Shown here: piece after piece, positions 17,722 to 61,561 of the stretch | Layout: each line of letters starts with the position of its first letter | Numbering within the stretch: the first letter of the stretch is position 1 | DNA from: Streptomyces sp. I6 | GTDB taxonomy: Bacteria > Actinomycetota > Actinomycetes > Streptomycetales > Streptomycetaceae | Assembly: GCA_003725745.1 (NCBI GenBank) | Contig: RHDP01000001.1 | Coordinates: 1,333,501 to 1,397,500 of the forward strand | DNA length: 64,000 nt | Direction of reading: 5' to 3' | Translations under genes and position numbers: made by a program | The notes under the pieces: model-generated | What the model was told of the DNA's origin: nothing | The model's database searches: none | Seen by the model: only the letters and a program-made list of their open reading frames with translations

Positions 17722-19147
17722 CTAGCACCGCTCCTCGAGCGGGGTGAGCCGGGGCGCCTGGCCGGGGATGCCGGGCTCCTCGCGCCGTTCGAGTCCGAAG
17801 CTGGTGAAGGCGGCGCGGCGGGGCAGCGGGTAGGGCTCTTTGCCGGTGAGGGAGTTGAGGATGGTCGCGCTGCGCCAGGCGGCCAGTCCGAGGTCGGGTG
17901 CGCCCACTCCGTGGGTGTGCCGCTCCGCGTTCTGCACGTACACGGATCCGGTGACCGCGGAGTCCATGACGAGCCGGAAGCGCTCGTCGATGCGGGGCCT
18001 TCCGGAGGCGTCCCGCCGCATGTAGGGGTCGAGGCCGACGAGGAGCCGGTCGAGGGGGCGTTCGCGGTAGCCGGTGGCGAGGACGACGGCGTCGGTGGTG
18101 AGTCGTGTGCGGGCGCCCTGCCGGAGGTGTTCCAGGTGCAGTTCGACCTTGGTGGTGGCGACCCGGCCGGCGGTGCGGACCCGCACACCGGGGGTGAGGA
18201 CGGCGTCGGGCCAGCCGCCGTGCAGGGTGCGCCGGTACAGCTCGTCGTGGATGGCCGCGATGGTGCCGGTGCCGATGCCCTTGTGGAGTTGCCACTGCCG
18301 GGGACGAGGTCGTCCCGTACGGGTTCCGGTAGTGCGTGGAAGTAGCGGACGTAGTCGGGGGTGAAGTGCTCCAGGCCGAGCTTGGAGTACTCCATGGGTG
18401 CGAACGCCTCGGTGCGGGCCAGCCAGTGGACCCGTTCGGCTCCGGCGGGCCGGGCGCGCAGTACGTCGAGGAAGACCTCGGCGCCCGACTGGCCGGAGCC
18501 GATGACGGTGATGTGCCCGGCGGCGAGGAGCCGTTCGCGGTGCTCGAGGTAGTCGGCGGAGTGGATCACGGGGACGCCGGGGGCGTCGGCCAGGGGCTGG
18601 AGCGGTTCGGGCACATGGGGCTCGGTGCCGATGCCGACGACGATGTGCCGGGCGTGGGCTCGGCCCAGTGACTCCACTCCTCCGTGCGGGTCGAGCCGGG
18701 TGAAGTCGACCTCGAACAGGGAGCGTTCCGGGTTCCAGCGGACGGCGTCGACCTGGTGCCCGAAGTGGAGGCCGGGCAGGCGCTCGCTGACCCAGCGGCA
18801 GTAGGCGTCGTACTCGGCGCGCTCGATGTGGAACCGCTCGGCGAAGTAGAAGGGGAAGAGCCGGTCGTGGTCCTTGAGGTAGCCGAGGAACGACCAGGGG
18901 CTGGCGGGGTCGGCGAGGGTGACGAGGTCGGCGAGGAACGGGACTTGGAGGGTGGTGCCGTCGATGAGCAGTCCGGCGTGCCAGTGGAACGCGGGTCGCT
19001 GGTCGTAGAAGGCGGTGGTGGGGCCGTCCGCGGTGCTCCCGGTCCGCAGTCCGTGGGCGAGGGCGGCGAGGGAGAGGTTGAACGGCCCGATGCCGATGCC
19101 GACGAGGTCGTGGGGCTGGTCGGTGCGGGGGGCGGGGTGCCGGTCAT
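17722..19147 (-). CDS. Lysine N6-/ornithine N5-hydroxylase family flavoprotein (two frameshifts)
   Basis: An FAD/NADPH N-hydroxylating monooxygenase of the IucD/DesB type that makes N-hydroxy-amines for siderophores. The FAD motif is LVGIGIGPFNLSLAA. It is followed by FYDQRPAFHWHAGLLIDGTTLQVPFLADLVTL, and the NADPH motif is VIGSGQSGAEVF. The C-terminal ATGYRERPLD and HGVGAPDLGLAAWRSATILNSLTG segments are family-specific. The ATG at 19147 overlaps the decarboxylase stop as ATGA. Two one-base losses break it: the G6 run at 19127-19132 right after the start, and the GGGG at 18300-18303 before RQWQLHKGIGTGTI. Restored length is 475 residues. Together with the upstream decarboxylase it could turn lysine into N-hydroxycadaverine, or act on a similar diamine. 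Confidence 0.88.
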
Positions 19148-21024: not shown

Positions 21025-23513
21025 CTACGCGCCGCGTACCCGAAGTGCCCGGCGCAGGTCGTCCAGCTGGTCGACCAGCTTGCGCCGCATGAGGGGGATC
21101 ATCTCCGAGTCGCGCAGGCATTCCTCACCGAGGCGGAGTGTCTCGGCGTCCACGGCGTGGAGCGGGAAGGCGTGGCGCCCGGCCGCCTCCGCGATCGCGG
21201 GCCCGCGCCGGTCCGCGAGGGCGACGGCCGCCGGATAGAAGCGCGGCACGTACGTGCGGACCAGTTCGGCCTGTTCGGGCTGCCAGAAGCCCTGCGCGGT
21301 GGCGGCGAAGAGGTAGTTGGACAGGTCGTCGGTCTCGAAGAGCCGGGACCACGCTGCCGCCTTGGCCTCCGGGGTGGGCAGCGCGGCTCGGCAGCGGGCC
21401 GCGCCCTCCTGCCCGGTGGCGCTGGGGTCGCGGTCGAGTTCGGCCGCGATCTCGGCGTCGCCGGTGGCGCCGAGGGCGGCGAGCCGGCCGAGGACGCGCC
21501 AGCGCAGCTCGGCGTCGAGGCCGGGTCCCCCGGGCACGCTGCCGTCGGCGAGCCAGTCGTGCAGCCCGTTGGGGTGCGCGGCGGCGTCGATGAAGTGGCG
21601 TACGGCGGTGAGGCGCAGGCCGGGGTGGCTGCCGTCCTCGGTGCGGCGGATGAGGTCGCGGGTGAGGTCGGTGAGCAGGGCGAGCGCGGCCGGGCGGTCC
21701 CCGGGGGTGAGGTAGCGGTCGGCGATCTGGGTGCGGGCGAAGGTCAGGACGCCCTGGACGACGGCGAGGTCGTGCTCGTGCGGGAGGTGGGCGCGGGCGG
21801 TCTCCAGGTAGGCGGCGGGTTCGAGCCCGCCGTCGCGGACCGAGTCGCGGAGGCTGTTCCAGACGACGGCGCGGGTGAGCGGGTCGGGGATGCCGGAGAG
21901 GCCGCGCAGCGCCGGTTCCGCGGACTGCGCGTCGAGCCGGATCTTCGCGTAGCCGAGGTCGCCGTCGTTGAGGACGACGAGGTCGGGGCGGCGGCCGGTG
22001 CGGACGGTGCCGCCCGGGCCCTGGGGGACGTCGACCTCGAAGCGTTCGCGCAGGACGAGCGCGCGGCCGTCGACGGGGTCGCGGTCGTAGGTGCCGACCG
22101 CTATGCGGTGCGGGCGGCTGCCGTCGCGGTCGATGTCGAGGCGCCAGGTGCCGGCTTCGGCGGTGATCCGCGGGTGAGGGTGTCGACGCCGGTGGTGCGC
22201 AGCCAGGCGGCGGCCCAGGTGTGCACGTCGCGGTCGGTGGCCTCGGCGAGGGAGTCGAGGAAGTCCACGAGGGTGGCGTTGCCGAAGCGGTGGCGCGCGA
22301 AGTGGGTGTTGATGCCGGCGAGGAAGTCCTTCTCGCCGAGCCAGGCGACGAGCTGGCGGAGCGCGGAGGCGCCCTTGGCGTAGGAGATCCCGTCGAAGTT
22401 GAGCAGTGCGGAAGCGGTGTCGGGGACCTTGTCCGGGTCGGGGGCCACGGGGTGGGTGGAGGGGCGCTGGTCGGCGTCGTAGCCCCAGGACTTGCGGCCG
22501 ATGCCGAAGTCGGTCCAGGTGTCGGTGAAGCGGGTGGCCTCGGTGAGGGTCTGGTAGCCCATGTACTCGGCGAAGGACTCGTTCAGCCAGATGTCGTCCC
22601 ACCAGCGGAGGGTGACGAGGTCGCCGAACCACATGTGGGCCATCTCGTGGGCGATGACCATGGCGCGGGTCTGGCGTTCGGTGTCGGTGACCGCGGAGCG
22701 GTAGACGAACTCGTCGCGGAAGGTGACGAGGCCGGGGTTCTCCATGGCGCCGGCGTTGAACTCGGGTACGAAGGCCTGGTCGTAGGAGTCGAAGGGGTAG
22801 GGCTCCTCGAACTTCTCGTGGTAGCGGTCGTAGCACTGCCGGGTGATGTCGAGGATCTCGTCGGCGTCCTCGTCGAGGTGGCGGGCGAGGGAGCGGCGGC
22901 AGTGGATGCCGAAGGGCAGGCCGCGGTGCTCGGTGCGGACGGAGTGCCAGGGTCCGGCGGCGACGGCGACGAGGTAGGTGGGGATGCGGGGGGTGGGGGC
23001 GGCGGTCCAGCGGCCGTCGCCGTGGTGGGTGGTGACGCCGTTGGCGAGCACGGTCCAGCCGTCGGGCGCGGTCACCGTCAGTGCGAAGACCGCCTTGAGG
23101 TCGGGCTGGTCGAAGGCGGCGAAGACGCGCTGCACGTCGTCCAGGAAGAGCTGGGTGTAGACGTATGTCTCGCCGTCCGCGGGGTCGGTGAAGCGGTGCA
23201 TGCCCTCGCCGGTGCGGGAGTAGTGCATGGTGGCGTCGATGCGCAGCTCGTGCTCGCCCTCGGTGAGTCCGGTGAGCGGAAGCCGGTTGCCGTCGAGCCG
23301 CTCCGGGTCGAGGTGCCGTCCGTCGAGGGTGGCGGAGCGCAGGGTGGCGGGCTTGAGCTCGACGAAGGTGTCGCCGGCGGCGCGGGCCGTGAACCCGATC
23401 ACGGTGCGCGACTCGAAGGTCTCGCCGGTGGTGAGGTCGAGTTCGACCGAGTAGCGGCGGACGTCCAGGAGCTGGGCTCGGGTCTGCGCTTCGTCGTGTG
23501 TGAGTACGGGCAT
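21025..23513 (-). CDS. pepN: Aminopeptidase N, M1 family (frameshift)
   Basis: A zinc aminopeptidase of the M1 family that trims N-terminal residues from peptides in the cytosol. The exopeptidase motif GAMENPGLV near residue 260 is followed by HEMAHMWFGDLVTLRWWDDIWLNESFAEY, with HExxH and the third zinc ligand Glu 18 residues on. The C-terminal ERAP1-like helical domain (VLNDGDLGYAKIRLD to the end) is complete. In the given sequence the frame breaks after TTGVDTLT. One extra base in the GGG at 22172-22174 joins it to PRITAEAGTWRLDID and gives 829 residues, close to actinobacterial PepN. The ATG at 23513 has a weak ribosome site. Confidence 0.93.
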
Positions 23514-23566
23514 GGGGCCATGCTGCCCGATGGCCCCGGTCCCGTACACGGGGGTATCCGGATCGA

Positions 23567-31339: not shown

Positions 31340-32092
31340 CCGCCGCCCGGTCCCCCGTCCCCCGCCGTCCCGGTCCGAGTACTGCGTGATCGCCTGCGCC
31401 GAGGCATGGCGCGGGGACGGGGAGGTACTGGCAAGCCCCATGGGGCTGATCCCCACGCTCGGGGCCCGCCTCGCCCGGCGCACCTTCTCCCCGATCTCCT
31501 GCTCACCGACGGCGAGGCGCTGCTCGTCGGGCCCGGCGGCGAGGTGGAGGGCTGGCTTCCGTACCGCCGCCACCTCACCATGGTCACCGGCGGCAGACGG
31601 CACGTCATGATGGGCGCGAGCCAGCTCGACCGCCACGGCAACCAGAACATCTCCTGCATCGGCGACTGGGCCCGGCCGGCGCGCCAGCTGCTCGGTGTGC
31701 GCGGCGCACCGGTCAACACGCTCAACCATCCGGTCAGTTACTGGGTTCCCCGGCACTCGCGCAGGGTCTTCGTCGAGCAGGTCGACATGGTCTGCGGCGT
31801 CGGCTACGACCGCTACGACCGCGCGGAGGGAGCGCGCTTCCACCGCATCCCGCGTGTCGTCACGAATCTGGGCGTGTTCGACTTCGAGACGCGGGACCGG
31901 TCGATGCGGCTGTGCTCCCTCCACCCGGGCGTGACCGTGGAGGAGGCCCGGGAGGCGACCGGCTTCCCGCTCACCGTCTCCGGCGGCGGCCCCGTCCCGT
32001 GCACCCGCGAACCCACCGCCGAGGAACTGCGGCTCATCCGCGAGGTACTCGATCCGGACGGCCGGCGCGACCGGGAGGTCGGGGCCCGATGA
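31336..32092 (+). CDS. ipdB: CoA-transferase family I beta subunit, IpdB-like (two frameshifts)
   Basis: The beta subunit that pairs with IpdA to hydrolyse the C-ring of the steroid-derived CoA ester. Recognisable segments are SEYCVIACAEAWRGDGEVLASPMGLIPTLGARLA, then DLLLTDGEALLVGPGG, MVTGGRRHVMMGASQLDRHGNQN and VTNLGVFDFE. These lie in three frames. One base is missing in the C-runs between 31352 and 31371, just after the GTG start, and one in the CCCC at 31489-31492. Restoring both gives 252 residues from the GTG overlapping ipdA to a stop that overlaps the ipdC ATG. The family length and both overlaps support a single intact gene with sequence errors. Confidence 0.87.
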
Positions 32093-33143
32093 GGACGGCG
32101 CTCACCGATCTCACCGGGGTGCGGCACCCCATCGTCCAGACCGGCATGGGCTGGGTGGCGGGACCTCGGCTGGTCTCGGCGGCCGCGAACGCCGGCGCCC
32201 TGGGCGTCCTGGCCTCCGCGACGATGACGCCGGACCGGCTGCGGCAGGCGGTCCGCGAGGTGAAGGCCCGCACTCAGGCGCCGTTCGGGGTCAATCTGCG
32301 GGCCGACGCCGGGGACGCCGGGGAACGGGTGCGGATCATCGTGGACGAGGGCGTACGGGTGGCGTCCTTCGCCCTGGCCCCTCCCGGGAGCTGATCGCGG
32401 AACTCAAGGACGCGGGCGTGGTCGTGATCCCTTCCGTCGGTGCCCGTCGCCACGCCGAGAAGGTCGCCGCCTGGGGCGCGGACGCCGTGATCGTGCAGGG
32501 CGGCGAGGGCGGCGGGCACACGGGGGACGTGGCGACGACCGTGCTGCTGCCGCAGGTGGTGGACGCGGTGGACATCCCCGTGGTCGCGGCGGGCGGCTTC
32601 CACGACGGGCGCGGTCTGGTCGCGGCGCTCGCGTACGGGGCCGCGGGCATCGCCATGGGCACCCGCTTCCTGCTCACCTCCGACTCGGCCGTGCCGGACG
32701 CGGTGAAGAGCCGCTATCTGGAGGCGTCCGTCAGGGACGTCACCGTCACCACCGCCGTCGACGGCCTGCCGCACCGGATGCTCCGCTCCGACCTGGTCGA
32801 GACCCTGGAGCGGGCGGGCCGCGCCCGCTCCCTGCTGCACGCGCTGCGCAGGGCCGCGGGCTTCCGGAAGCTCTCCGGGCAGTCCTGGCGGGAGATGGTC
32901 CGCGACGGCCTCGCGCTGCGGCACGGCAGGGCTCTCTCCTGGAGCCAGGTGCTGCTCGCCGCCAACACCCCGATGCTGCTGCGGGCGGCGATGGTCGAGG
33001 GCCGCACCGACCTCGGCGTGATGGCGTCCGGCCAGGTCGCGGGCGTGATCGAGGACCTGCCGAGCTGCGCCGAACTGGTGGGCCGGGTAATGGCGGAAGC
33101 GGAGGGGGTGCTGCGCGGGCTGGGCCCGGGGGCGACGGGCTGA
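32089..33143 (+). CDS. ipdC: FMN-dependent nitronate monooxygenase-like protein, IpdC (frameshift)
   Basis: A TIM-barrel flavoprotein of the nitronate monooxygenase/2-nitropropane dioxygenase family. Motifs are HPIVQTGMGWVAGPRLVSAAANAGALG at the N-terminus, the GGEGGGHTGDV flavin loop, PVVAAGGFHDGRGLVAAL, and GAAGIAMGTRFLLT. IpdC proteins in steroid clusters act on a ring-derived CoA intermediate and are not true nitronate oxidases. The ATG at 32089 overlaps the ipdB stop as ATGA. The given frame stops at GCTGA near 32392. One extra C in the CCC at 32383-32385 joins APPRELIAELKDAGVVVIPSVGARRH and gives 351 residues. Confidence 0.88.
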
Positions 33144-38678: not shown

Positions 38679-39466
38679 CTACGGATGCCGGGAGCTGACG
38701 GACACGGTCTCGCCGGTCATGTACGAGGAGTACCCGCTGGCGAGGAAGACGATCACGTTGGCGACCTCCCAGGGCTCGGCGTACCGGCCGAACGCCTCGC
38801 GGGCGGTGAGGTCCCTCAGCAGTTCGGCGGACGTGGCCTTCACCAGGTGCGGATGCATCGCGAGACTGGGGGCCACGGCGTTGACGCGGACCCCGAACTC
38901 CGCCGCCTCGACCGCCGCGCACCGGGTGAGGGCCATCACCCCGGCCTTCGCGGCCGCGTAGTGGGCCTGGCCGGCCTGGGCCCGCCAGCCGAGGACGGAG
39001 GCGTTGTTGACGATGACGCCCCGCGGCCGGAGTCGCGGAAGGCGCGCAGCGCGGCCCGGGTACAGCGGAAGGTGCCGTTCAGGGTCACGTCGAGGACGCG
39101 GGACCACTGGTCGTCGGACATGTCGACCAGCGCCGCGGTCCCGCCGAGCCCCGCGTTGTTGACGACGACGTCGGGGCCGCCGTGCAGCCGCTCCGCTTCG
39201 CCGAAGAGGGCCCGCACCTGGGTCTCGTCGGTGACGTCGCAGACCAGTGAGGCGACGGCGTCCGGACCGAACTCGTCAGCGAGCGCCCCCTCCGCCTGCT
39301 CCAGCCGGCGGGCGTGCGCATCGCCGATGAGGACCCGCGCGCCCTCCTCCAGCAGGCGCCGGGCGGTGGCTCCGCCGATCCCGGCCCCGGCCGCCGCGGT
39401 GACGACGGCGGTCCGGCCGGCGAGGAGCGCGTGCCCCGGAACGTACTGAGCCTTGTTGTCCGTCAC
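38679..39466 (-). CDS. ipdF: Short-chain dehydrogenase IpdF-like (frameshift)
   Basis: An SDR acting on a hydroxylated CoA ester of the methylhexahydroindanedione propionate pathway. The cofactor loop is VVTAAAGAGIGGATARRLLEEGARV. Then come VVVNNAGLGG, NNASVLGWRAQAGQAHYAAAKAG with the catalytic Tyr and Lys, and VNAVAPSLAMHPHL. The frame breaks after FRDSGRG; one extra C in the CCCC at 39019-39022 joins VIVNNASVLGW. The restored protein is 262 residues, the family length. The GTG at 39466 has no clear ribosome site and the operator lies 14-33 bases upstream, so the mRNA may be nearly leaderless. Confidence 0.88.
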
Positions 39467-44116: not shown

Positions 44117-45568
<1,452 letters not shown>

Positions 45569-45576
<8 letters not shown>

Positions 45577-51016: not shown

Positions 51017-51745
51017 CTAGACAGCGGCCCCGACCAGGCTTCCGATCCCGTACGTCACGGCCGCGGCGGCACCGCCCAGGGCCAGCTGCCGGAGCCCGCT
51101 CGACCACCAGCCGCGCGCGGTCACCCTGGACACCAGCGCTCCGCAGGCGAACAGCCCCAGCAGCGCCAGCAGCACCGCGGGCCACAGCGACGTGGCACCC
51201 AGGAGATAAGGCAGGACCGGCAGCAGCGCGCCCAGGGCGAACGACCCGAAGGACGAGACGGCGGCGACCGTCGGCGAGGGCAGGTCGTCCGGATCGATGC
51301 CCAGCTCCTCTCGGGCGTGGATCTCCAGCGCCCGCTCCGGGTCCCGGGACAGCTGCACGGCCACTTCGCGGGCGAGCCGGGGCTCGACACCGCGCGCCAC
51401 GTACAGCGCGGCCAGCTCCTCCATCTCGTCGACCGGGTGCTTGTGCAGCTCGCGGCGCTCGACCTCGAGTTCCGCCTGGACGAGTTCGCGCTGCGAGGCG
51501 ACCGAGGTGTACTCGCCGGCGGCCATGGAGAAGGCACCCGCCGCCAGACCGGCGAGACCCGTGATCACCATGGTCTGCGGGGACACGGAGCCCCCCGCGA
51601 CACCGCTCATCAGGGCGAGGTTGGACACCAGCCCGTCCATCGCGCCGAACACCGCGGGGCGAAGCCAGCCGCCGTTGACGTCCCGGTGCGTGTGGTTGTC
51701 GCGGTGCGCCTCGTGAAGCGTCGCCTCGGTCTCGATGATGGACAC
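51017..51745 (-). CDS. VIT1/CCC1-family iron/manganese transporter
   Basis: A 242-residue membrane protein of the CCC1/VIT1 group, which moves Fe2+ or Mn2+ out of the cytosol. The first segment WLRPAVFGAMDGLVSNLALMSGVAGG and the second TMVITGLAGLAAGAFSMAAGEYTSV are characteristic. A charged cytoplasmic helical region with Glu-rich EVERRELHKHPVDEMEELAALY follows, the metal-binding domain in plant VIT1. Three C-terminal membrane helices complete the fold. The GTG at 51745 has GGGGAGAG upstream. It is divergent from the ADP-ribosylglycohydrolase operon. Confidence 0.92.
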   Translation of the reverse strand: MSIIETEATLHEAHRDNHTHRDVNGGWLRPAVFGAMDGLVSNLALMSGVAGGSVSPQTMVITGLAGLAAGAFSMAAGEYTSVASQRELVQAELEVERRELHKHPVDEMEELAALYVARGVEPRLAREVAVQLSRDPERALEIHAREELGIDPDDLPSPTVAAVSSFGSFALGALLPVLPYLLGATSLWPAVLLALLGLFACGALVSRVTARGWWSSGLRQLALGGAAAAVTYGIGSLVGAAV

Positions 51746-51981: not shown

Positions 51982-52977
51982 GTGGACTGGACTGCATGCG
52001 ATCGGGCCCGCGGCGCGCTCCTGGGACTGGCCGTGGGCGACGCCCTCGGCGCACCGGCGGAGAACATGCGGCCCTCCGAGATCCGCCGCCGCTGGGGCCG
52101 TATCGAGGGCTTCGTGACCGACAGCCCCGCGGGTACGGACGACACCGAGTACGCGATCTTCTCCGGGCTGCTGCTCGCCCGGCACGGATCGGCGCTCACC
52201 GTGGCGCACGTCGAGAAGGCGTGGCACCACTGGATCGCCGACCTGGACGAGGGCCCGTTCCGGGGGGCCGGCTTCAGCGAGCGGGGCACCCTGGAGAACC
52301 TGCGCCGCGGGCTGGCGGCGCCCATCACCGCGCAGCACCGGCACGCCTGGAGCGACGGGCTCGCCATACGGGCGGCGCCGTTCGGGGTGTTCGCCGCGGG
52401 CTCCCCCGGCGAGGCGGCCCGGCTGGTGGCCGTCGACGGCTGCGTGAGCCACGACGGCGAGGGCATCTACGGCGGGCAGGCGGTGGCGGCGGGGGTGGCC
52501 GCTGCGATGGCGGGGGCCGGTCCGGCGGGTGTGATCGGCGCCGCCCTGTCCGCCGTCCCCCTGGACTCCTGGACGTCGCGCTCCCTGCGCCGGGCGGTCG
52601 TCGCGGCGGAACGCGCGGGAACGGATCCGCTCGGCCGCGAACGGACGGTCCGCTCCGCGGTCGTCGTCGGCGGCTACCCGTGGACCGACCTGGCTCCCGA
52701 GGCGGTCGGACTGGCCTTCGGCGCGTTCGCCGCGGCCCGGGGCGACTTCCGCACCTCGGTGCTGACCGCGGTCAACATGGGCCGCGACGCCGACACCACC
52801 GCGGCGGTCGCGGGTGCGCTGGCCGGAGCGATGTCGGGCGCCTCCGCCATTCCGCCGGACTGGGCCGCCGCGATCGGCCCGGTCCGGGGCAGCTGCCTCC
52901 CCTCCATGCGGGGCTACCACGTCCTCGACATCGCGGACCTGCTCACTCCGTACGACGACACCGAGGCCCCGTCATGA
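51982..52977 (+). CDS. ADP-ribosylglycohydrolase family protein 1
   Basis: A 331-residue DraG/ARH-fold protein. The metal-binding motifs are complete: GLAVGDALGAPAEN near residue 18, GTDDTEYA near 50, and NMGRDADTTAAVAGALAGAMSG near 265. Family members remove ADP-ribose from proteins or split other N- or O-linked ribose adducts using two Mg2+. The GTG at 51982 is seven bases after AAGGAG. It opens a long operon: the stop overlaps the next start as ATGA. The substrate is unknown. Confidence 0.9.
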   Translation: MDWTACDRARGALLGLAVGDALGAPAENMRPSEIRRRWGRIEGFVTDSPAGTDDTEYAIFSGLLLARHGSALTVAHVEKAWHHWIADLDEGPFRGAGFSERGTLENLRRGLAAPITAQHRHAWSDGLAIRAAPFGVFAAGSPGEAARLVAVDGCVSHDGEGIYGGQAVAAGVAAAMAGAGPAGVIGAALSAVPLDSWTSRSLRRAVVAAERAGTDPLGRERTVRSAVVVGGYPWTDLAPEAVGLAFGAFAAARGDFRTSVLTAVNMGRDADTTAAVAGALAGAMSGASAIPPDWAAAIGPVRGSCLPSMRGYHVLDIADLLTPYDDTEAPS

Positions 52978-54943
52978 CCCCCCGCCCGCTCGACTCCACC
53001 ACTGCGGACCAGCCGACTCCCGACGCCCCGGACACGCCGCCGGACCTGGCGGCGGACACCGGGGAGGCCTCGGCCGACGGGCCGGGTGCGGCCGCGCAGC
53101 GCCCGGGGCCGGCCCCGGGCGCGGAGGCACGGCCGGACCAGGGGAAGTCCCCGGACGGGCGGCAACCGCCGGCCCCGGCGGGGGCGGGGGCGGCCGGGAT
53201 GCCCGCGGCGCACGGGCACCGGGCCGAACCCGCGGACGCGGACGCGGACGCCGACGCGGACGCGGACGCCGACGCGGACGCGGACGCCAACACCGGCACC
53301 GGCACCGGCACCAACACCGGCACCAACACCGGCACCGACGCGGACCACGCCGCGCGGAACCGGCCCGCCCCCGGCGGCTCCTCCGCGGCCCCCCGGCCCC
53401 CGGCCGCCCCCGCAGGCCCGGACCCCACCGCGCGGAACCGCCCGGACCGGCCGGAGCCCTCACGCCCGGCGGGGCTGCCGGAGCACGGGGCGGGCCGGGC
53501 ACCACTCCATCCACCGCCCGGCGGCCGGCAGCGCGGTGCGGCGGCGGACGACGGCACGGCCACCGCGCGGACCCGGCGGCCGGACACCCCCGCGCCGGCG
53601 CCGGGGGCCGCGGCCCCGTGTCGGGGTGGGGGTACTCGTGCTGGCCGCACCGGGCGGCGGCACGCCCCGGCGAGGCGGCCGGCGCGCGCACGCGCACCGC
53701 TCCCCGCGCCCGCGACGGATACCGCACACGGATCGAGGGCCTGCTGCTCGGTCTCGCCGCCGGTGACGCCGCCGGGTGGCCGGCGGCGCGGCACCGGGCC
53801 GCGCGGATGCCGGAGTGGACCCGGCGTCTCACCCGCGAACTCGACACCTTCGCCGAGCAGAACGCCACGACCACGCTGCCGGTCCCGATCGCCCTGAACC
53901 AGCCCCCGGAACCGCTGCGCCTCGGCCCGTCCGACGACGCGGAGTGGGCCGCCTTCGCCGCCGAGACGGTCCTCGCCTCCGCGGGTGAGCGGTTCGACGG
54001 CCTGGACCCCGGCCGCCGGGTGCGCACCGCCGTCGACCTCGCCTGGAACGCCCTCGCCGGAAAGATCGCCGCGGCCGAGGCCCGGGCACCGGAGGTCGAG
54101 GCGGCCGTGCCTCCCCTGCGTGCCCGTATCTCCGTACGCGCGGGCCTCGGCAATCTCGCCACCGGACTGCGCCCGCCCGCGACCGGCCACGACAATCCGC
54201 ACTACTTCGACGACGCCGCCTGCGTGCGCGCCGCCGTGCTCGCCGTCGTCCACCCGGGCGACCCACGGGCCGCCGCCGAGCTGGCCGAGTTCGACGCGCG
54301 CTACACCCAGGACGGCGACGGTGTGCACGGCGCCCGCGCCATGGCGGCCGCCGTCGCCGCGGCGCTCGGCGGCGCGACTGCGGACGCGGCCGTCGGCGCC
54401 GCCCTGGCCGAGCTTCCCGAGGCCACCGAGATCGGCCGCAACGCCCGGCACGCCCTGGCGCTCGCCCGCCGCGCGGAGGACGCCTTCTCCCTGGTGCCCC
54501 TGCTGGAGCACCAGATCGTCGACCACGTCTACAGCTACGGCATCGCCGCGGCCGAGACGGTGCCCGTCGCCCTCGCGCTGGTGACGGCGGCACGCGGCCG
54601 GATGGGCGGGGCCCTGCCCGCCGCCGCGTGCCTGTCACGCGTCGCCGACTCCGCGCCCGCCCTCGCCGGAGCGCTGACCGGGGCCCTCGGCGGGGCGCAG
54701 GCCGTGCCCGCGGCCTGGCGGGACGCCTGCCGCACCCTGGCCGGCTGCGCCCTCCCCCGCCTCGCCGGCACGGACCTGGTGGAACTCGCCGGGCTGCTGG
54801 CCCGCGCCATCCGCCTGCCGGACGCCGCCCCGGCCGGGCCGCACACCCCGCCGTCCGCCGCCGTGGCGGCCCCGGTGTCCTCATCCTCGGCCGCCGGTGC
54901 TGCCGCCACCGGAGGAGGTACCGGCCGGACCGCGGGCCCGTAA
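52974..54943 (+). CDS. ADP-ribosylglycohydrolase family protein 2 with disordered N-terminal region (frameshift)
   Basis: The ATG at 52974 overlaps the previous stop. The first 215 or so residues are low-complexity, rich in Pro, Ala, Asp and Thr, with an (Asp-Ala)n run and Thr-Gly/Asn repeats. The DraG-like domain follows (YRTRIEGLLLGLAAGDAAGWPAARH, then LGPSDDAEWAAFAAETVLA). The frame changes between the two parts; one extra C in the CCCC at 53614-53617 joins APVSGWGYSCWPHRA and gives 656 residues. Two metal motifs are altered: TDDT is SDDA, and the C-terminal GGDxDS appears as SRVADS with the first Asp lost. Catalysis may therefore be weak or absent. Confidence 0.82.
53238..53340. repeat. 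Hexamer repeats inside ADP-ribosylglycohydrolase 2
   Basis: About nine GACGC(G/C) hexamers (53238-53290) encode alternating Asp-Ala, followed by CACCGG-type hexamers coding Thr-Gly and Thr-Asn pairs. Codon choice alternates between units. This is a coding minisatellite prone to length change. Confidence 0.88.
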
Positions 54944-55016
54944 CTCGCCTCTCCCGGACCCGAATCCCCGACGCCGCCTGCCTCACCCGCGCCCGCCCCG
55001 GGTGGACAATTCCGGC

Positions 55017-56182
55017 ATGACACTCTCAGCGCACGCGGTCGCCACGCTCGACGACCGGATCACCGGCTCCCTCGTCGGCGCCGCGGTCGGCGACGCGCTC
55101 GGCGGGCCGGTCGAGGGATACACCCCGGAGCAGATCGCGGAGCGCCACGGCGGCCGCGTCCGGGGCGTCGTCGGCCCCTGGCACGGCGGCGACTGGCGCA
55201 CCGCCCGCCCCATCGCGCCGTACCACAAGGGGACGGGCACGTCACCGACGACACCCTGATGACGCACGCCCTCGTCCGCGTCTACGCCGCCGTCCGGGAC
55301 CACCTCGACGCCTACTCCGTCGCCGACCACCTCGTACCGGACCTCGTCTCCACGCCGCGCTGGATCCCCGAGCTGGAGGCCGAGGCCCTGCCGCTTCAGC
55401 GGGTGTTCCTCGCCGAGAAGTGGCTCGCGGCCCGGCTGCACTACGGCCATGTCGACCCGCGCGAGGCCGGCACCGGGAACATCGTCAACTGCGGCGCGGC
55501 CATGTACATGGCCCCGGTCGGGCTGGTCAACGCGGCCAACCCGGCCGCCGCCTACGCGGAGGCCCTGGACGTGGCGGGCGCCCACCAGTCCTCGTACGGG
55601 CGTGAGGCCGCGGGCGTCCTCGCCGCCGCCGTCGCCGCGGCCTGCACACCCGGGGCGAGCCCGGAGTCCGTCATCGAGACCTGCCTGTCGCTCGCCAAGG
55701 ACGGCACCCGCTCGGCGATCGAGGCGGTGGCCGAAGTCGCATCCCGGCACGGCGACTTCGAGCCCGCGCTCCGTCCGCTCAGGGAGGCCGTCGCACCGTT
55801 CGACACCGTCGGGCCCGACTACCGCGCCCCCTCCCTGGCCGCCCGCCGCCCCTCCCGGCTGCACTCCGTCGAGGAACTGCCCGTCGCACTGGGCATGCTG
55901 CTCATCGGCGACGGCGACTACCGCAGGACCGTGCTGGGTTCCGTGAACTACGGCCGGGACTGCGACTCGATCGCCACGATGGCCGGGGCGCTCGCGGGCG
56001 CGCTGCACGGCGAGGGACCGGTCCCGGCCGACTGGGTGAAGACCGTCGCCGAGGCCAGCCGCCTCGACCTGCACGCCCCGGCCAGGACGCTCACGGAGGT
56101 CGCGTACGAGATCTTCGCCCGTGACACCCGGCGCCGCCGGGCGCACGAGGCCGCCTTCGCCGAACTGGCGGACGCCCGGTGA
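55017..56182 (+). CDS. ADP-ribosylglycohydrolase family protein 3 (frameshift)
   Basis: A DraG-fold protein with intact metal motifs: LVGAAVGDALGGPVEGY, VTDDTLMTHALV and NYGRDCDSIATMAGALAGALHG. The frame breaks just before TDDT; one extra G in the GGGG at 55229-55232 gives YHKGDGHVTDDT and 388 residues in all. It starts at the ATG at 55017, 73 bases after gene 2 without a strong ribosome site, and its stop overlaps the GTG of gene 4. Of the four it looks the most like a standard active enzyme. The central insertion TPRWIPELEAEALPLQRVFLAEKWLA is shared with long-form actinobacterial homologues. Confidence 0.87.
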
Positions 56183-57773
56183 GCCTCCGGCTCACCTGGG
56201 TCCAGCCCGAGGACCTGGTCGGCCACGAACTGCGCCAGGCCGCCGAGGACGGCCGGGACGCCTCGGCGGTCGCACACCGCTGGCGGGCGGCGGGCGGCAC
56301 GCCGGCACCCCCGGCCGCGGGCGCCTCACCGCGGCCCGCGCCGCCGCGGCTGCGGACGCTGGCGCTCCGGCTCCTGGACGAACTCGACGCGCTCCCCGCG
56401 CCGTTCGCCGGCCGCGAGCCGACGGGCCTGCCGGCCATCGGGGCGGCGTGCCCCGACTGGCCCGGGCCGCGGCCGCGGGACGTGCCCGGGCGGGCGGGGC
56501 ACGGGACGGACGACCGTACACGGGACATGCCCGGGCGCGGGACGGACGACCCGCCGGAGACCGGACCCGGACGCGGGACGGACGACCCGCCGGAGACCGG
56601 ACCCGGACGCGGGAGGGACGGCCCGCCGGAGCAGCGGCTGCACGCCGCCTGGCTCGGCCGGGCGGCGGGCTGCCTGCTCGGCAAACCCGTGGAGAAGCTC
56701 CCCCTGCACGCCATCCGCGCACTCGCCCGTGCGACCGGCAACTGGCCGCTGTCGACGTGGTTCACCGCGAGGGGCGTGCCTCCCGGGCTGCTGGCCGCCC
56801 ACCCCTGGAACCGCCGCTCGGCCCCCACCTCACTCGCCGAGAACATCGACGGCATGCCCGAGGACGACGACCTCGACTACCCGCTGCTGAACCTGCTCCT
56901 CCTCCAGCGGTACGGACGGGGCTTCGGCACCGCCGACGTCGCCCGGCTCTGGCTGGACGAACTCCCCGCCGGGCGCACGTTCACCGCCGAGCGGGTCGCG
57001 TACCGCAATCTGCTCCAGGGTGTGGAACCGCCGGAGACCGCGACCCGGCACAACCCCTTCCGGGAGTGGATCGGCGCCGCCATCCGCGCCGACGTGCACG
57101 GCTGGACCCACCCCGGCGACCCGGCCGCGGCGGCCGAGCAGGCCCATCGGGACGCGGTGCTCACCCACACCGCGAACGGCGTTTACGGGGCGATGTTCGT
57201 CGCGGCGGCGCTGGCCGTGGCGGCCGGCGGGGCCGCGGACGTACACACATGCCTGCGCGAAGGGCTCCGTGTCGTCCCGCCCCGCTCCCGGCTCGCCGCG
57301 GCCGTCCGCCACGGCATCGCCACCGCCGCCGCGCACGACGACTTCAACACCGTCGTGGACCGGCTGCACTCCGCGTACGGTGCCTACCACTGGGTGCACG
57401 CCGTCCCCAACGCGGCGCTGCTCGCCGCCGCGCTCACCCACGCGGACGGGGACTTCACCGGCAGCATCTGCCGTGCCGTGTCGGGCGGCTGGGACACGGA
57501 CTCCAACGGCGCCACCGCCGGCTCGCTGGCCGGGTTGCTCGCCGGCAGCCCCGGCCGGCTGCCCGAGCGCTGGACCGCCCCCTCAAGAACCGTCTCGCCA
57601 CCACCGTCGGCGGGTTCGACGGTGTCGGCTTCGACACGCTCGCCCGCCTCACGTACGCCCACTCCACCGGCGCCGCCGACGCCACCCGAACCGCCCGCAC
57701 GGCCCGCACGGCCCGCACGGCCCACACGGCCCACACGGCCCACACGGCCCATCGGCAGGATCCGCACGCATGA
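56179..57773 (+). CDS. ADP-ribosylglycohydrolase family protein 4 (frameshift)
   Basis: A 531-residue, strongly diverged member. Residues 1-90 are a helical preamble. A repeated PGRGTDDPPET unit (about residues 115-150) then links to the catalytic fold, where GDALG has become GCLLGKPVEK, TDDT has become EDDDLDYPLL and the third motif is GGWDTDSNGATAGSLAG. The last part needs one extra C in the C5 run at 57578-57582 to read APLKNRLATTVGGFDGVGFDTLA. It ends in (TARTA)/(THA)n repeats. The GTG at 56179 overlaps the previous stop as GTGA. Loss of the first motif Asp suggests a changed metal site or substrate. Confidence 0.83.
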
Positions 57774-58109
57774 CCGGCATCGCCGTGCCCGGCGACCGCA
57801 GCACGGACCGCGTCGCCCCTGCCCCGGGGGCGGCGGCCCGTCGCGGAGAGACCGCGACGGGCGGCAGCCCCGCACCGCCCCGAGGGCCGCCGGTGCCCGA
57901 GGCGACGGCACGGGCACCCACCCCGGCCAACACTCCCCGTCCAGCGCCGCCGCCTCCCCACCTGCCCGCCGTGTCGCACCCGGGCCCGGTACCACCCGGC
58001 CGGCAGGAAGCCGAGGGCACCGCACGCACCGCGGGAGCCCTACGCCCCCCACACCCCCGCGAAGCCGCCGCACCTCGCACGACCCGCAGGAGACTCGCAA
58101 GGAGCCCCC
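57770..58109 (+). pseudogene. Possible ribokinase/PfkB relic
   Basis: The ATG at 57770 overlaps the previous stop as ATGA. The first 33 codons read [20 protein letters not shown] and then [10 protein letters not shown], which resembles the first strand and loop of PfkB sugar kinases (GxTNxDxVxxxxxxPxRGETVTG). After that only Pro/Ala/Arg filler follows, with no GGKGANQA or GAGD motif. It may be the stump of a deleted kinase gene in the operon. The filler holds the ribosome site of the next gene. Confidence 0.4.
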
Positions 58110-59376
58110 ATGCACGACCCCGACACCACCGGTGCCGTCGCCCGCCCGTCCGTCCCGGCCGGCCCGTCCGTCCCGGCCGGTGCGCCCGCCGCGAGCGGGC
58201 CGCTCGCCGGGCTGCGCGTCCTCGACCTGGCCACCCTGTTCGCCGGGCCGCTCGCGGCGACGATGCTCGGCGACTTCGGCGCCGATGTGATCAAGGTCGA
58301 GCACCCCCGCAGACCCGACCCGTCGCGCGGCCACGGCCCGGCAAGGACGGCGTCGGGCTCTGGTGGAAGCTGCTCGGCCGCAACAAGCGGACCATCACGC
58401 TCGACCTGTCCGCCCCGGCGGCCGCGAGACGTTCCTGAGGCTCGCCGCCACCGCGGATGTCGTCATCGAGAACTTCCGCCCCGGCACGCTGGAGCGGTGG
58501 CGGCTGGGCTGGGCGGAGCTGAGCGCCGCCAGCCCCCGGGTGGTGCTGGCCCGGGTCACGGGCTTCGGCCAGTTCGGCCCGTACTGCCACCGGCCCGGTT
58601 TCGGCACCCTCGCCGAGGCCATGAGCGGCTTCGCCGCGCTCACCGGCGAACCGGACGGCCCGCCCACACTGCCGCCCTTCGGACTCGCCGACTCCATCGC
58701 GGCGCTCGCCACCTCCTACGCCGTGATGACCGCGCTCACCGCCCGTGCCGCCACCGGTCGCGGCCAGGTCGTCGACATGGCGATCATCGAGCCCATCCTC
58801 ACCGTGCTGGGGCCGCAGCCCATCTGGTACGACCAGCTCGGCTACGTCCAGCCGCGCACCGGCAACCGCTCACGCAACAACGCCCCCCGCAACACCTACC
58901 GCGCGGTCGACGGCAGCTGGCTCGCCGTCTCCACCTCCGCGCAGTCCGTGGCCGAACGCGTGATGCGGCTCGTCGGCCGTCCGGAGCTGGTGTCCGAGCC
59001 GTGGTTCGCCTCGGGCAGCGGCCGGGCGGAGCACGCCGAGGTGCTCGACGAGGCCGTCGGCGCCTGGATCGCCCGCCACACCAGGGACGAGGTCATCGCC
59101 GCCTTCGACAAGGCCGAGGCCGCGGTCGCCCCCGTCTACGACGTACGGGACGTCATGGCCGACCCCCAGTACCGGGCCCTCGGCAGTGTCACCGAGGTTC
59201 CCGATCCGGAACTCGGGCCCATCCGCATGCAGAACGTCCTCTTCCGCCTGTCCGAGACCCCGGGCGGCATCCGCTGGGCCGGCCGGCCGCACGGAGCGGA
59301 CACCGACGCCGTGCTCGGGGAACTCGGACTCACCCCCGGCAGGATCGCCGCCCTGCGCGCGGAAGGCGCCCTGTGA
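58110..59376 (+). CDS. CaiB/BaiF family III CoA-transferase (two frameshifts)
   Basis: A 422-residue class III CoA-transferase. It begins with AAGGAG and the ATG at 58110, followed by [38 protein letters not shown]. The middle reads [54 protein letters not shown], and the catalytic Asp is in [15 protein letters not shown]. Two one-base losses break the frame: CCC at 58337-58339 and the CCCCGG at 58413-58418. Such enzymes move CoA between carboxylic acids. The stop overlaps the CitE-like gene as GTGA, so its CoA ester product is probably the substrate of that lyase. Confidence 0.88.
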
Positions 59377-60170
59377 CCCCGCTCACCTGGCTGTACGCAC
59401 CCGGCGACCGGCCCGAGGTGGTCGGGAAGGCGCTCTCCTCGGGCGCCGACATCGTGATCGTCGACCTGGAGGACGCGGTCGCGCCGCACCGCAAGGCGTA
59501 CGCCCTCGCGGCCACCGCCGAACTGCTCTCCTCCCCTCAGCCCGTGCCGGTCCACGTCCGCATCCACGCGGAACGGGACATCGCCCCGCTGGCCCGCCTG
59601 CCGGGCCTGGCCGCTCTGCGCATCCCCAAGGTGACACACGCCTCCGACATCCGGGGCCCGGCGAGGCTGGCGCCCGGGAAGGGGCTGTACGCGCTGCTGG
59701 AGTCGGCGGGCGGGGTGGAGCACGCCTTCGCCATCGCGACCGCCGACCCCGCGGTGCGCGGCATCGCGCTCGGCGAGGCGGACCTCCGGGCGGACCTGGG
59801 GGTACGCAACGACACCGGGCTGGACTGGCCGCGCAGCCGCGTCGTCGTCGCCGCCCGCGCCGCGGGGCTGCCCCCGCCGACGCAGTCGGTGTTCCCCGAC
59901 ATCCGCGACCTGGACGGGCTGGCGGCGTCCTGCGCCCACGGCCGCTCCCTGGGGTTCCTCGGCAGGGCCGCCATCCACCCCCGGCAGCTCCCGGTGATCG
60001 AGCGCGCCTACCTTCCCGGCACCGAGGAGGTGGAGGCGGCCGAGGAGATCGTCAAGGCGGCGGCGACGGGCGAGGGCGCCCTGGCCCTCCCCGACGGCCG
60101 CTTCGTGGACGCGGCCGTCGTCGCCGCGGCCCACCGCACGCTCGCCCTCGCCGGCCGCGACGGCTCGTGA
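59373..60170 (+). CDS. HpcH/HpaI (CitE-like) CoA ester lyase
   Basis: A 265-residue TIM-barrel lyase. Motifs are [37 protein letters not shown] (substrate Arg/Lys and metal acid), [15 protein letters not shown] and [14 protein letters not shown]. It belongs to the group with citramalyl-CoA, malyl-CoA and citryl-CoA lyases, which split a hydroxy-diacid CoA ester. It is translationally coupled to the CoA-transferase. Together they could activate and cleave a C4-C6 hydroxy-acid to acetyl- or propionyl-CoA plus an oxo-acid. The exact acid is unknown. Confidence 0.9.
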
Positions 60171-60547: not shown

Positions 60548-61561
60548 TCAGTTCCTGTTCGCGGACCCGGAGTCGGCCGGGTCGCCCTCGGCGTCCTTGC
60601 CCGGTGACAGCGCCCCGGAGCCGGGAGTCCCGCCGGAGGCGGATGCGGAGCCGGGGTCCGCGCCGGCCTCGTCGCCCGGAGTGCCCTCGGCGCCGGCCCC
60701 GTCCTCCTTGCCGCCCTCGTCCTTCTTGCCGTCCGCGCCCTGCCGCACGGCCGCGGGCTCGACGATCTCCTCGCGGCCCGGGCGGAGCCGGGCGGAGACC
60801 ACGATGTAGACCACGGCCAGGACGAAGACCAGCATCGCCGTCCAGACGTTCAGCCGGAGGCCGAGGACGTGGTGCGCCTCGTCGACGCGCATGTACTCGA
60901 TCCAGGCCCGGCCCGCGCAGTACGCGGCGACGTACAGAGCGAACGCCCTGCCGTGGCCGAGCCGGAAGCGGCGGTCCGCCCAGATCACCAGCAGCGCCGT
61001 ACCGACACACCACAGCGACTCGTAGAGGAACGTCGGGTGGTAGAGTCCGGCCTCCCGGTTCACCCCCTCGCTGATCTCGAGGGCCCACGGCAGGTCCGTC
61101 GGCCTGCCGTACAGCTCCTGGTTGAACCAGTTGCCCCAGCGGCCGATCGCCTGTGCGAAGGCGATGGCGGGCGCGATGGCGTCCGCGTACGCGGGCAGCG
61201 GGATGCCCCGGCGGCGGCAGCCGATCCACGCACCGACCGCGCCGAGCGCGATGGCGCCCCAGATGCCGAGGCCGCCCTCCCAGATCTTGAACGCGTCGAC
61301 CCAGTTCCGGCCCTCGCCGAAGTACAGCTGGTAGTCGGTGATCACGTGGTACAGGCGTCCGCCGACGAGGCCGAAGGGGACGGCCCACACGGCGATGTCC
61401 GCCACTGTGCCGGCTTTGCCGCCGCGGGCGATCCAGCGCTTGTTGCCGTACCAGACGGCCACGAAGACACCGATGATGATGCAGAAGGCGTAGCCGCGCA
61501 GCGGAAGCGGTCCGAGGTGGACGACACCGGTGGACGGGCTGGGAATGTAGGCAAGGTCCAT
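60548..61561 (-). CDS. lgt: Prolipoprotein diacylglyceryl transferase
   Basis: A 337-residue integral membrane enzyme that adds diacylglycerol to the lipobox cysteine of prolipoproteins such as LivK. Seven membrane segments are visible. The Lgt signature GRWGNWFNQELYG is near residue 145, and PSPSTGVVHLGPLPLRGYAFCIIIG and the HPTFLYESLW loop are typical. The ATG at 61561 begins MDLAYIPSPSTGV. The last 65 or so residues form an acidic, Gly/Ala/Pro-rich cytoplasmic tail (KKDEGGKEDGAGAEG...), common in Streptomyces Lgt and of no known role. Confidence 0.95.
   Translation of the reverse strand: MDLAYIPSPSTGVVHLGPLPLRGYAFCIIIGVFVAVWYGNKRWIARGGKAGTVADIAVWAVPFGLVGGRLYHVITDYQLYFGEGRNWVDAFKIWEGGLGIWGAIALGAVGAWIGCRRRGIPLPAYADAIAPAIAFAQAIGRWGNWFNQELYGRPTDLPWALEISEGVNREAGLYHPTFLYESLWCVGTALLVIWADRRFRLGHGRAFALYVAAYCAGRAWIEYMRVDEAHHVLGLRLNVWTAMLVFVLAVVYIVVSARLRPGREEIVEPAAVRQGADGKKDEGGKEDGAGAEGTPGDEAGADPGSASASGGTPGSGALSPGKDAEGDPADSGSANRN

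Follow-up and report, generated by a model that had tools for sequence, protein, structure and literature searches.

Four ADP-ribosylglycohydrolase-fold proteins, a CoA-transferase and a CitE-like lyase in a conserved Streptomyces operon that probably degrades a ribose-bearing compound

Bacterial proteins of the ADP-ribosylglycohydrolase (ARH) family are usually read as enzymes that reverse ADP-ribosylation, and Streptomyces coelicolor is cited for its abundance of these hydrolases. A stretch of 64,000 nucleotides from Streptomyces sp. I6 (contig RHDP01000001.1, positions 1,333,501 to 1,397,500 of the forward strand), referred to here at its full length as the window, raises the question of what such proteins do when four of them stand in one run with a CaiB-type coenzyme A (CoA) transferase and a CitE-like acyl-CoA lyase. 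We argue that the run probably supplies the enzymes of a conserved operon for the catabolism of an imported ribose-bearing compound. More tentatively, and with doubt slightly outweighing belief, we put forward a particular scheme, in which several proteins of the ARH fold, including one deficient in its metal site, would act jointly as riboside hydrolases on an imported conjugate, the ribose passing to a ribokinase and the hydroxy-acid to the CoA-transferase and lyase; this pathway would be previously undescribed.

Six plus-strand genes and one gene remnant are bordered by two minus-strand genes, a VIT-family gene and lgt (Table 1). Profile searches found PF03747 in four consecutive proteins (ARH1 to ARH4), all above the gathering cut-off of 26.2 bits, then CoA_transf_3 and then HpcH_HpaI, as expected from a preliminary description of the sequence that had placed four DraG/ARH-fold genes, a CoA-transferase and a lyase in a row. 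Its claim that the junctions overlap holds in part. NTGA overlaps occur at four sites (52974-52977, 56179-56182, 57770-57773 and 59373-59376), being GTGA at ARH3/ARH4 (56179) and CaiB/CitE (59373); the ATGA at 52974, however, opens a repeat-rich linker open reading frame (ORF) that is out of frame with the ARH2 domain (domain frame 52814-54943), and ARH2 and ARH3 do not overlap, there being 73 bp from stop to ATG. The suspected stump of a sugar kinase is real, since the closest relative found, G034 (locus L039), holds an intact ribokinase (RbsK) ORF of 303 codons (909 bp) at this position; from the ATGA at 57770 to the CaiB start measures 340 bp in the window, compared with 1143 bp with the full ribokinase in G034.

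Comparison of gene neighbourhoods, proposed earlier as a way of seeing whether these genes scatter independently, showed an order that is conserved in Streptomyces, kinase included, and a linkage that extends across phyla, with exceptions in genome G012, locus L149 and part of a family of loci, f19. Conservation at the VIT-lgt site was scored in 27 loci of the same genus (window excluded) and the best 80 of 311 confirmed loci, 107 in all, of which 102 are distinct by their CaiB stretch; two of the 80 are recorded under other genera ([Kitasatospora] papulosa and Microtetraspora glauca). A gene was counted as present where one stretch showed more than 50% identity over more than half the query. 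ARH1-ARH2-ARH3-ARH4-RbsK-CaiB-CitE are all present in 76 of the 102 distinct loci, 11 have everything except RbsK, and the remaining 15 deviate in other ways, contig ends cutting several of them. The exact order GltB-VIT-ARH1-ARH2-ARH3-ARH4-RbsK-CaiB-CitE-Lgt-DsbA-TrpA-TrpB was found in 56 of the 80-locus set. Exact 4-bp overlaps by in-frame starts, counted over the 107 loci with the five duplicates still in, join ARH1 to ARH2 in 81/95, ARH2 to ARH3 in 24/101, ARH3 to ARH4 in 64/101 (within 20 bp in 98), ARH4 to RbsK in 87/88, RbsK to CaiB in 69/89 and CaiB to CitE in 102/103.

Presence at this site is largely all or none. Among 36 same-genus genomes, nine lack a close CitE, leaving aside G010, which carries a partial copy with a frameshift. 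The interval from VIT to lgt could be checked in seven of the nine, and in all seven it is free of the seven genes; of the other two, G001 yielded no lgt and the contig of G028 ends too soon. Where present, all seven genes are under purifying selection, with median dN/dS (the ratio of non-synonymous to synonymous substitution rates) of 0.21-0.38, and 0.21 each for ARH1 and ARH2. G023 has importer genes only at the site. In G014 (L063, L090) the operon, without RbsK, is located elsewhere, preceded by a LacI regulator and an importer, and a second ARH1 stands alone between gltB and lgt, an arrangement that is possibly a relocation intermediate.

The genes LacI-PermA-PermB-SBP stand directly upstream of ARH1, at the same chromosomal place, in three of the 80 loci (L145, L159 of Streptomyces daqingensis, and L185); the importer is absent from this locus in the other 77, is sometimes found elsewhere in the genome, and in four Streptomyces its genes occur alone at another place. 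Fuller operons exist in actinobacteria. In family f21, LacI-PermA-PermB-SBP-ARH1-ARH2-ARH3-ARH4-RbsK-CaiB follow in this order in all nine loci of this type and CitE is present in eight; a protein of about 640 residues with a C-terminal FGE/SUMF1 domain lies between RbsK and CaiB in 8/9 (for example at L205 14048-15961, where its N-terminal part has no assignment). RbsK and this protein form one frame of 996 residues in G065 (L263), after ARH3-ARH4 and before CaiB-CitE, and G312 (L269) has LacI-PermA-PermB-SBP-ARH3-ARH4-X640-CaiB-CitE, X640 being the same protein. Family f19 has the same ARH part as f21, followed by CaiB-CitE only in L209, L212 and L213 (L202 is cut). Other orders are CaiB-CitE-LacI-PermA-PermB-SBP-ARH3-ARH4-ARH1-ARH2 in L219 (family f38), and LacI-PermA-PermB-SBP-ARH3-ARH1-ARH2-CaiB-CitE in L220, from a 1.3-Mb genome of 45% GC. 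The importer belongs to families BPD_transp_1 and SBP_bac_1, its best solved chains are sugar-binding proteins, and the best model for the LacI regulator is RbsR. G184 (L208 1878-19505) combines ARH4-, ARH1- and ARH2-like genes with two sugar-type importers (by eye) and two PfkB kinases; there, an ARH protein of 651 residues with a signal-like N-terminus (by eye) stands beside a GH13-like protein, and this setting, with its sugar transporters, fits a carbohydrate role.

A tblastn search of plasmids with ARH3 matched 27 records, 20 of them alphaproteobacterial, of which 15 were read. In these rhizobial loci a LacI gene and an importer precede ARH3 in all 15, ARH4 is present in 13, CaiB in nine and CaiB with CitE in eight. 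Over about 390 residues the CoA transferase of Ensifer shares 45% identity with the Streptomyces CaiB, and Agrobacterium HAMBI 105 carries a ribokinase downstream instead of a CoA transferase. The strongest argument for a shared pathway is this linkage of ARH with CaiB and CitE, which recurs in two phyla under different gene orders. A supposed ARH1-ARH2 fusion in rhizobia was rejected, the 700-residue protein being an ARH4-like domain with a C-terminal part that weakly matches laminin-G.

The ARH proteins themselves are unequal. TDDTE and DADTT of ARH1 align with the metal motifs of DraG (2woe), and both metal motifs are kept in ARH1, ARH3 and ARH4 (5, 6 and 5 lineages compared), DDD replacing TDD in ARH4; the motifs that the preliminary description had marked as conserved in the first and third genes were confirmed as metal-site motifs. 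In ARH2 the C-terminal metal motif DxDT lacks its first Asp in 5/5 lineages, and VADS takes the place of DADT in 10/10 rows of alignment A1; by median dN/dS, ARH2 is nevertheless under the same constraint as ARH1. In the mapped loci where both were found, ARH2 is placed after ARH1. Because ARH3-ARH4 occur without ARH1-ARH2 (rhizobia, G065, G312) and ARH1-ARH2 without ARH3-ARH4 (L149, L217, L218), the distribution suggests that the ARHs form two pairs, ARH3 with ARH4 and ARH1 with ARH2; ARH3 is also seen without ARH4 (L220, L237, L258). ARH3 has the clearest rhizobial relatives, at about 40-45% identity to full-length matches; at E 1e-60 it matched only the window's genus in the phylum sample (10 of 396 genomes), divergent relatives lying beyond the reach of that threshold. 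In L149 (8522-11227) ARH1 and ARH2 form one long frame, with RbsK, CaiB and CitE directly after. Repeats occupy 53200-53340 of the ARH1-ARH2 linker in the window, and the ARH4 linker of this strain has insertions relative to G034 (56480-56620).

Family tests place the downstream enzymes with differing precision. RbsK of G034 and G224 scores 310.4 and 309.8 bits against the ribokinase equivalog TIGR02152, passing its cut-off of 299.65, and 273 and 286.8 bits against the equivalog NF008353, below its cut-off of 341. The larger CaiB piece in the window reaches 306.2 bits for PF02515, above cut-off, and no listed NCBIfam model reaches its own. At the position aligned to the catalytic Asp of class III CoA-transferases, which we take to be Asp169 of formyl-CoA transferase, CaiB has Glu in four lineages; YfdE has Asp, and the Asp-to-Glu change was dropped as a hallmark since Glu also occurs in the solved chain 10uh. 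The best NCBIfam match of the CitE-like lyase is the RipC citramalyl-CoA lyase model NF038242, which the window and G224 proteins match at 136.0 and 150.3 bits, below the cut-off of 375; the best solved chains are 8khl/9nzb. With its nearest models all below cut-off, we rejected the lyase sequence as an unreliable guide to the identity of the acid; one study likewise warns that, for members of this family, bioinformatics alone does not assign function reliably (PMC6689899).

Across 345 sampled genomes of the class, gene content links ARH2 (searched at 1e-20) to the CaiB subfamily (at 1e-140). ARH2 was found in 57 genomes, the CaiB subfamily in 80 and both in 56, so that CaiB is present in 56/57 ARH2-positive and 24/288 other genomes (Fisher p 5e-44, uncorrected for kinship). 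Among the 56 is Streptomyces G203, where the ARH2 match is no more than weak and CaiB lies in a second, non-ARH context.

From these families the following route may be drawn. A LacI regulator would sense the sugar or conjugate, and a CUT1-type ATP-binding cassette (ABC) importer would bring the conjugate into the cell, where the ARH-fold hydrolases would cut the ribosyl bond or bonds, using two Mg ions as in DraG. ARH3 and ARH4 may work as one pair, and ARH1 and the metal-site-deficient ARH2 as a second, perhaps as enzyme and non-catalytic partner. Ribokinase would convert the freed ribose to ribose 5-phosphate. For the acid, we propose that CaiB and CitE act much as a transferase and a lyase do when itaconate is broken down (PMC12290011, PMC12599236 and PMC6689899): CaiB would put CoA on the remaining hydroxy-acid, and the lyase would split the ester to acetyl-CoA or propionyl-CoA and a 2-oxo acid, the kind of reaction with which that system ends. 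The likeliest type of acid would be a 3-hydroxy dicarboxylate, such as citramalate, malate or 3-hydroxy-3-methylglutarate. Itaconate ict-ich-ccl (PA0882, PA0878, PA0883), RipC/Ccl and Rv2498c likewise present a CoA transferase and then a CitE-like lyase, but the window lyase is below the RipC cut-off and the ARHs and ribokinase upstream have no counterpart there; no itaconyl-CoA hydratase was recognised among the operon genes (by eye; one locus by Pfam). The preliminary description had suggested a ribosylated molecule whose acid is degraded through CoA, and conserved order, all-or-none presence, the ribokinase cut-off and the rhizobial ARH, CaiB and CitE genes support that outline; the substrate class, the cut ribosyl bond, the ARH pairing and the order of steps are what we infer.

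Several observations weigh against this reading. G012 retains CaiB-CitE at the site with no ARH gene, Streptomyces sp. CB01580 (L149) is without ARH3 and ARH4, and RbsK is missing from the window as well as from 11/102 loci; another ribokinase-like gene, below cut-off, was found elsewhere in 6/6 tested RbsK-lacking genomes, and also in 2/3 of those that keep RbsK. In family f19, L210 and L211 have no CaiB-CitE in the stretch read (CaiB is elsewhere in both genomes), and L217 and L218 have ARH1-ARH2 only, with a different, more distant importer. Nonomuraea gerenzanensis (L236) has no CaiB-CitE within 25 kb of its ARH part. Six of the 15 rhizobial loci are without CaiB, and several of the nine that have it are close strains. 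No measurement of the activity of these enzymes on a riboside was found in the open-access literature. Finally, when 18 of the 24 CaiB-positive, ARH2-negative genomes were read, CaiB in 14 stood beside at least one hydantoinase-like, cyclase or MmgE/PrpD gene, with no ARH match; this context often adds an FAD flavoprotein and an Asp/Glu racemase-like protein. The remaining four are G065 and G312, which have ARH3-ARH4 with CaiB-CitE, and G106 and G338, which show neither context clearly. Because the same CaiB subfamily occurs in a non-ARH context, CaiB-CitE is not exclusive to ribosides. It has the look of a final module into which two or more upstream routes feed, and this speaks for an acid common to them and against a function bound to ADP-ribose.

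The second context is seen in G203 (L278 5483-17222), where an IclR-type regulator (by eye), CaiB, CitE, a cyclase and two MmgE/PrpD genes are found with genes for an Asp/Glu racemase-like protein, an FAD flavoprotein, an allantoinase/hydantoinase-like amidohydrolase and a major facilitator superfamily (MFS) transporter. L262, L264, L270, L274 and L277 hold relatives of this cluster, some with a Liv-type ABC transporter (by eye) instead of the MFS protein.

It is unlikely, in our judgement, that the operon of this strain is a decaying relic without function. RbsK is only a remnant, the strain's own genome has no close PermA (best match 39%), and relative to G034, whose lyase is 94% identical, single-base deletions affect ARH3 once, ARH4 once and CaiB twice, or four in 6.8 kb, whereas the rest of the window would lead one to expect 1.0 (p about 0.02). 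Decay is at odds with dN/dS against G034 of about 0.05 for ARH1, 0.09 for ARH2 and 0.12 for CitE, and with the loci that lack RbsK and have everything else. Moreover, all four deletions sit in G/C-rich runs, and elsewhere in the window frame splits relative to G034 also affect 5/28 genes over the 33.1 kb that could be compared (another 8 G034 genes were without a match), which is consistent with an unpolished long-read assembly; the frameshifts were hence not accepted as proof of decay. Given these runs, the five other split genes and an assembly of 2 contigs at 87% completeness, the breaks in ARH3, ARH4 and CaiB are probably assembly errors for the most part. Loss of the ribokinase in this strain is real.

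Table 1. Genes of the run, its borders and other frame-split genes in the window
Feature	Position	Strand	Evidence
ARH1	51982..52977	+	PF03747 3.1e-57, 194.9 bits; motifs TDDTE, DADTT complete
ARH1-ARH2 linker, variable, low-complexity, with repeats	52974..53707	+	Sequence and frame plot
ARH2, divergent ARH-fold	53708..54943	+	PF03747 8.2e-34, 118 bits, in ORF 52814-54943
ARH3	55017..56182	+	PF03747 in both pieces, 36.3 and 112.5 bits; single-base deletion near 55231
ARH4, N-terminal extension	56179..57773	+	PF03747 2.7e-47, 162.2 bits; single-base deletion near 57581
Ribokinase (RbsK/PfkB) remnant	57770..58109	+	Alignment with G034; ~800 bp shorter than G034 interval
CaiB, class III CoA-transferase	58110..59376	+	PF02515 in both pieces; deletions near 58334 and 58413
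CitE-like acyl-CoA lyase (HpcH/HpaI)	59373..60170	+	PF03328 2.6e-24; best NCBIfam model RipC, below cut-off
VIT-family gene, left border, outside operon	51017..51745	-	Border common to Streptomyces with and without operon
lgt, right border, outside operon	60548..61561	-	PF01790; border common to Streptomyces with and without operon
Other genes frame-split relative to G034	17728-19124, 21034-23519, 32089-33122, 38682-39466, 44120-45576		

Two further explanations concern what the ARH proteins act upon. We think it improbable that all four are true ADP-ribosyl hydrolases, removing a signal or damage, with the CoA genes merely on the same transcript. All four do belong to PF03747, with the metal motifs of ARH1, ARH3 and ARH4 intact, and SCO2028-SCO2031 of S. 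coelicolor, which from gene order we infer to be ARH1-ARH4 of this locus, are catalogued as uncharacterized DraG/ARH homologues (PMC9411070), SCO2028-2030 being likewise listed elsewhere (PMC5087735). These four homologues have consecutive tags near trpX, SCO2038, and S. violaceoruber NRRL S-981 (L158) has the order ARH1-4-CaiB-CitE-lgt-dsbA-trp; the accessible parts of the published accounts treat them only as ADP-ribosyl hydrolases and mention no operon or pathway. Yet SCO2028 and SCO2030 are reported to be inactive on U-alpha-ADP-ribose (U-alpha-ADPr; PMC13036486), a single ADP-ribosyl substrate, and they may act on others. ARH2 is without one metal-site Asp, a sugar-type importer, LacI and often a ribokinase accompany the ARHs in other families, and the link from ARH to CaiB recurs across phyla in varied arrangements. 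The known enzymes DraG and ARH3 share the fold family, and DraG the aligned metal motifs of ARH1, but ARH1 at 70.9 bits is under the cut-off of 337 for the DraG equivalog TIGR02662, and the genomic context here is one of carbohydrate catabolism.

Salvage of a nucleoside or N-riboside, with the ARHs as nucleosidases and CaiB-CitE burning a ring-opened base, appears to us hardly likely. It has a model in Escherichia coli yegTUV (regulator YegW/GgaR), which joins a predicted ARH to a predicted sugar kinase and a nucleoside symporter, the functions of the three genes being unknown (PMC10819704, as far as accessible), and which resembles the present operon in placing an ARH-family protein, a PfkB-type kinase and a transporter under one regulator; in addition, the hydantoinase-like and cyclase genes that adjoin the same CaiB subfamily could open rings. 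Nevertheless, yegTUV as described there has a single ARH, a nucleoside-type symporter, a GntR-type regulator and no CoA genes, whereas the importer here resembles sugar importers in its families and solved chains, and inspection of the ARH operons (by eye; one locus by Pfam) brought to light no enzyme recognisable as opening a ring. As the preliminary description had supposed, no account of a pathway with this set, or of the operon as a pathway, was found in the open-access literature.

If the scheme of ARH-fold proteins acting jointly as riboside hydrolases holds, a good part of bacterial 'ADP-ribosylglycohydrolase' annotations would denote carbohydrate-degrading enzymes unrelated to ADP-ribosylation. 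Should four of the eight listed S. coelicolor ARH homologues be catabolic, the view of that organism as rich in ADP-ribosyl hydrolases would change, and with it the search for matching transferases. Complete operons elsewhere, which hold the regulator, importer, hydrolases and kinase or CoA steps, make the question directly testable.

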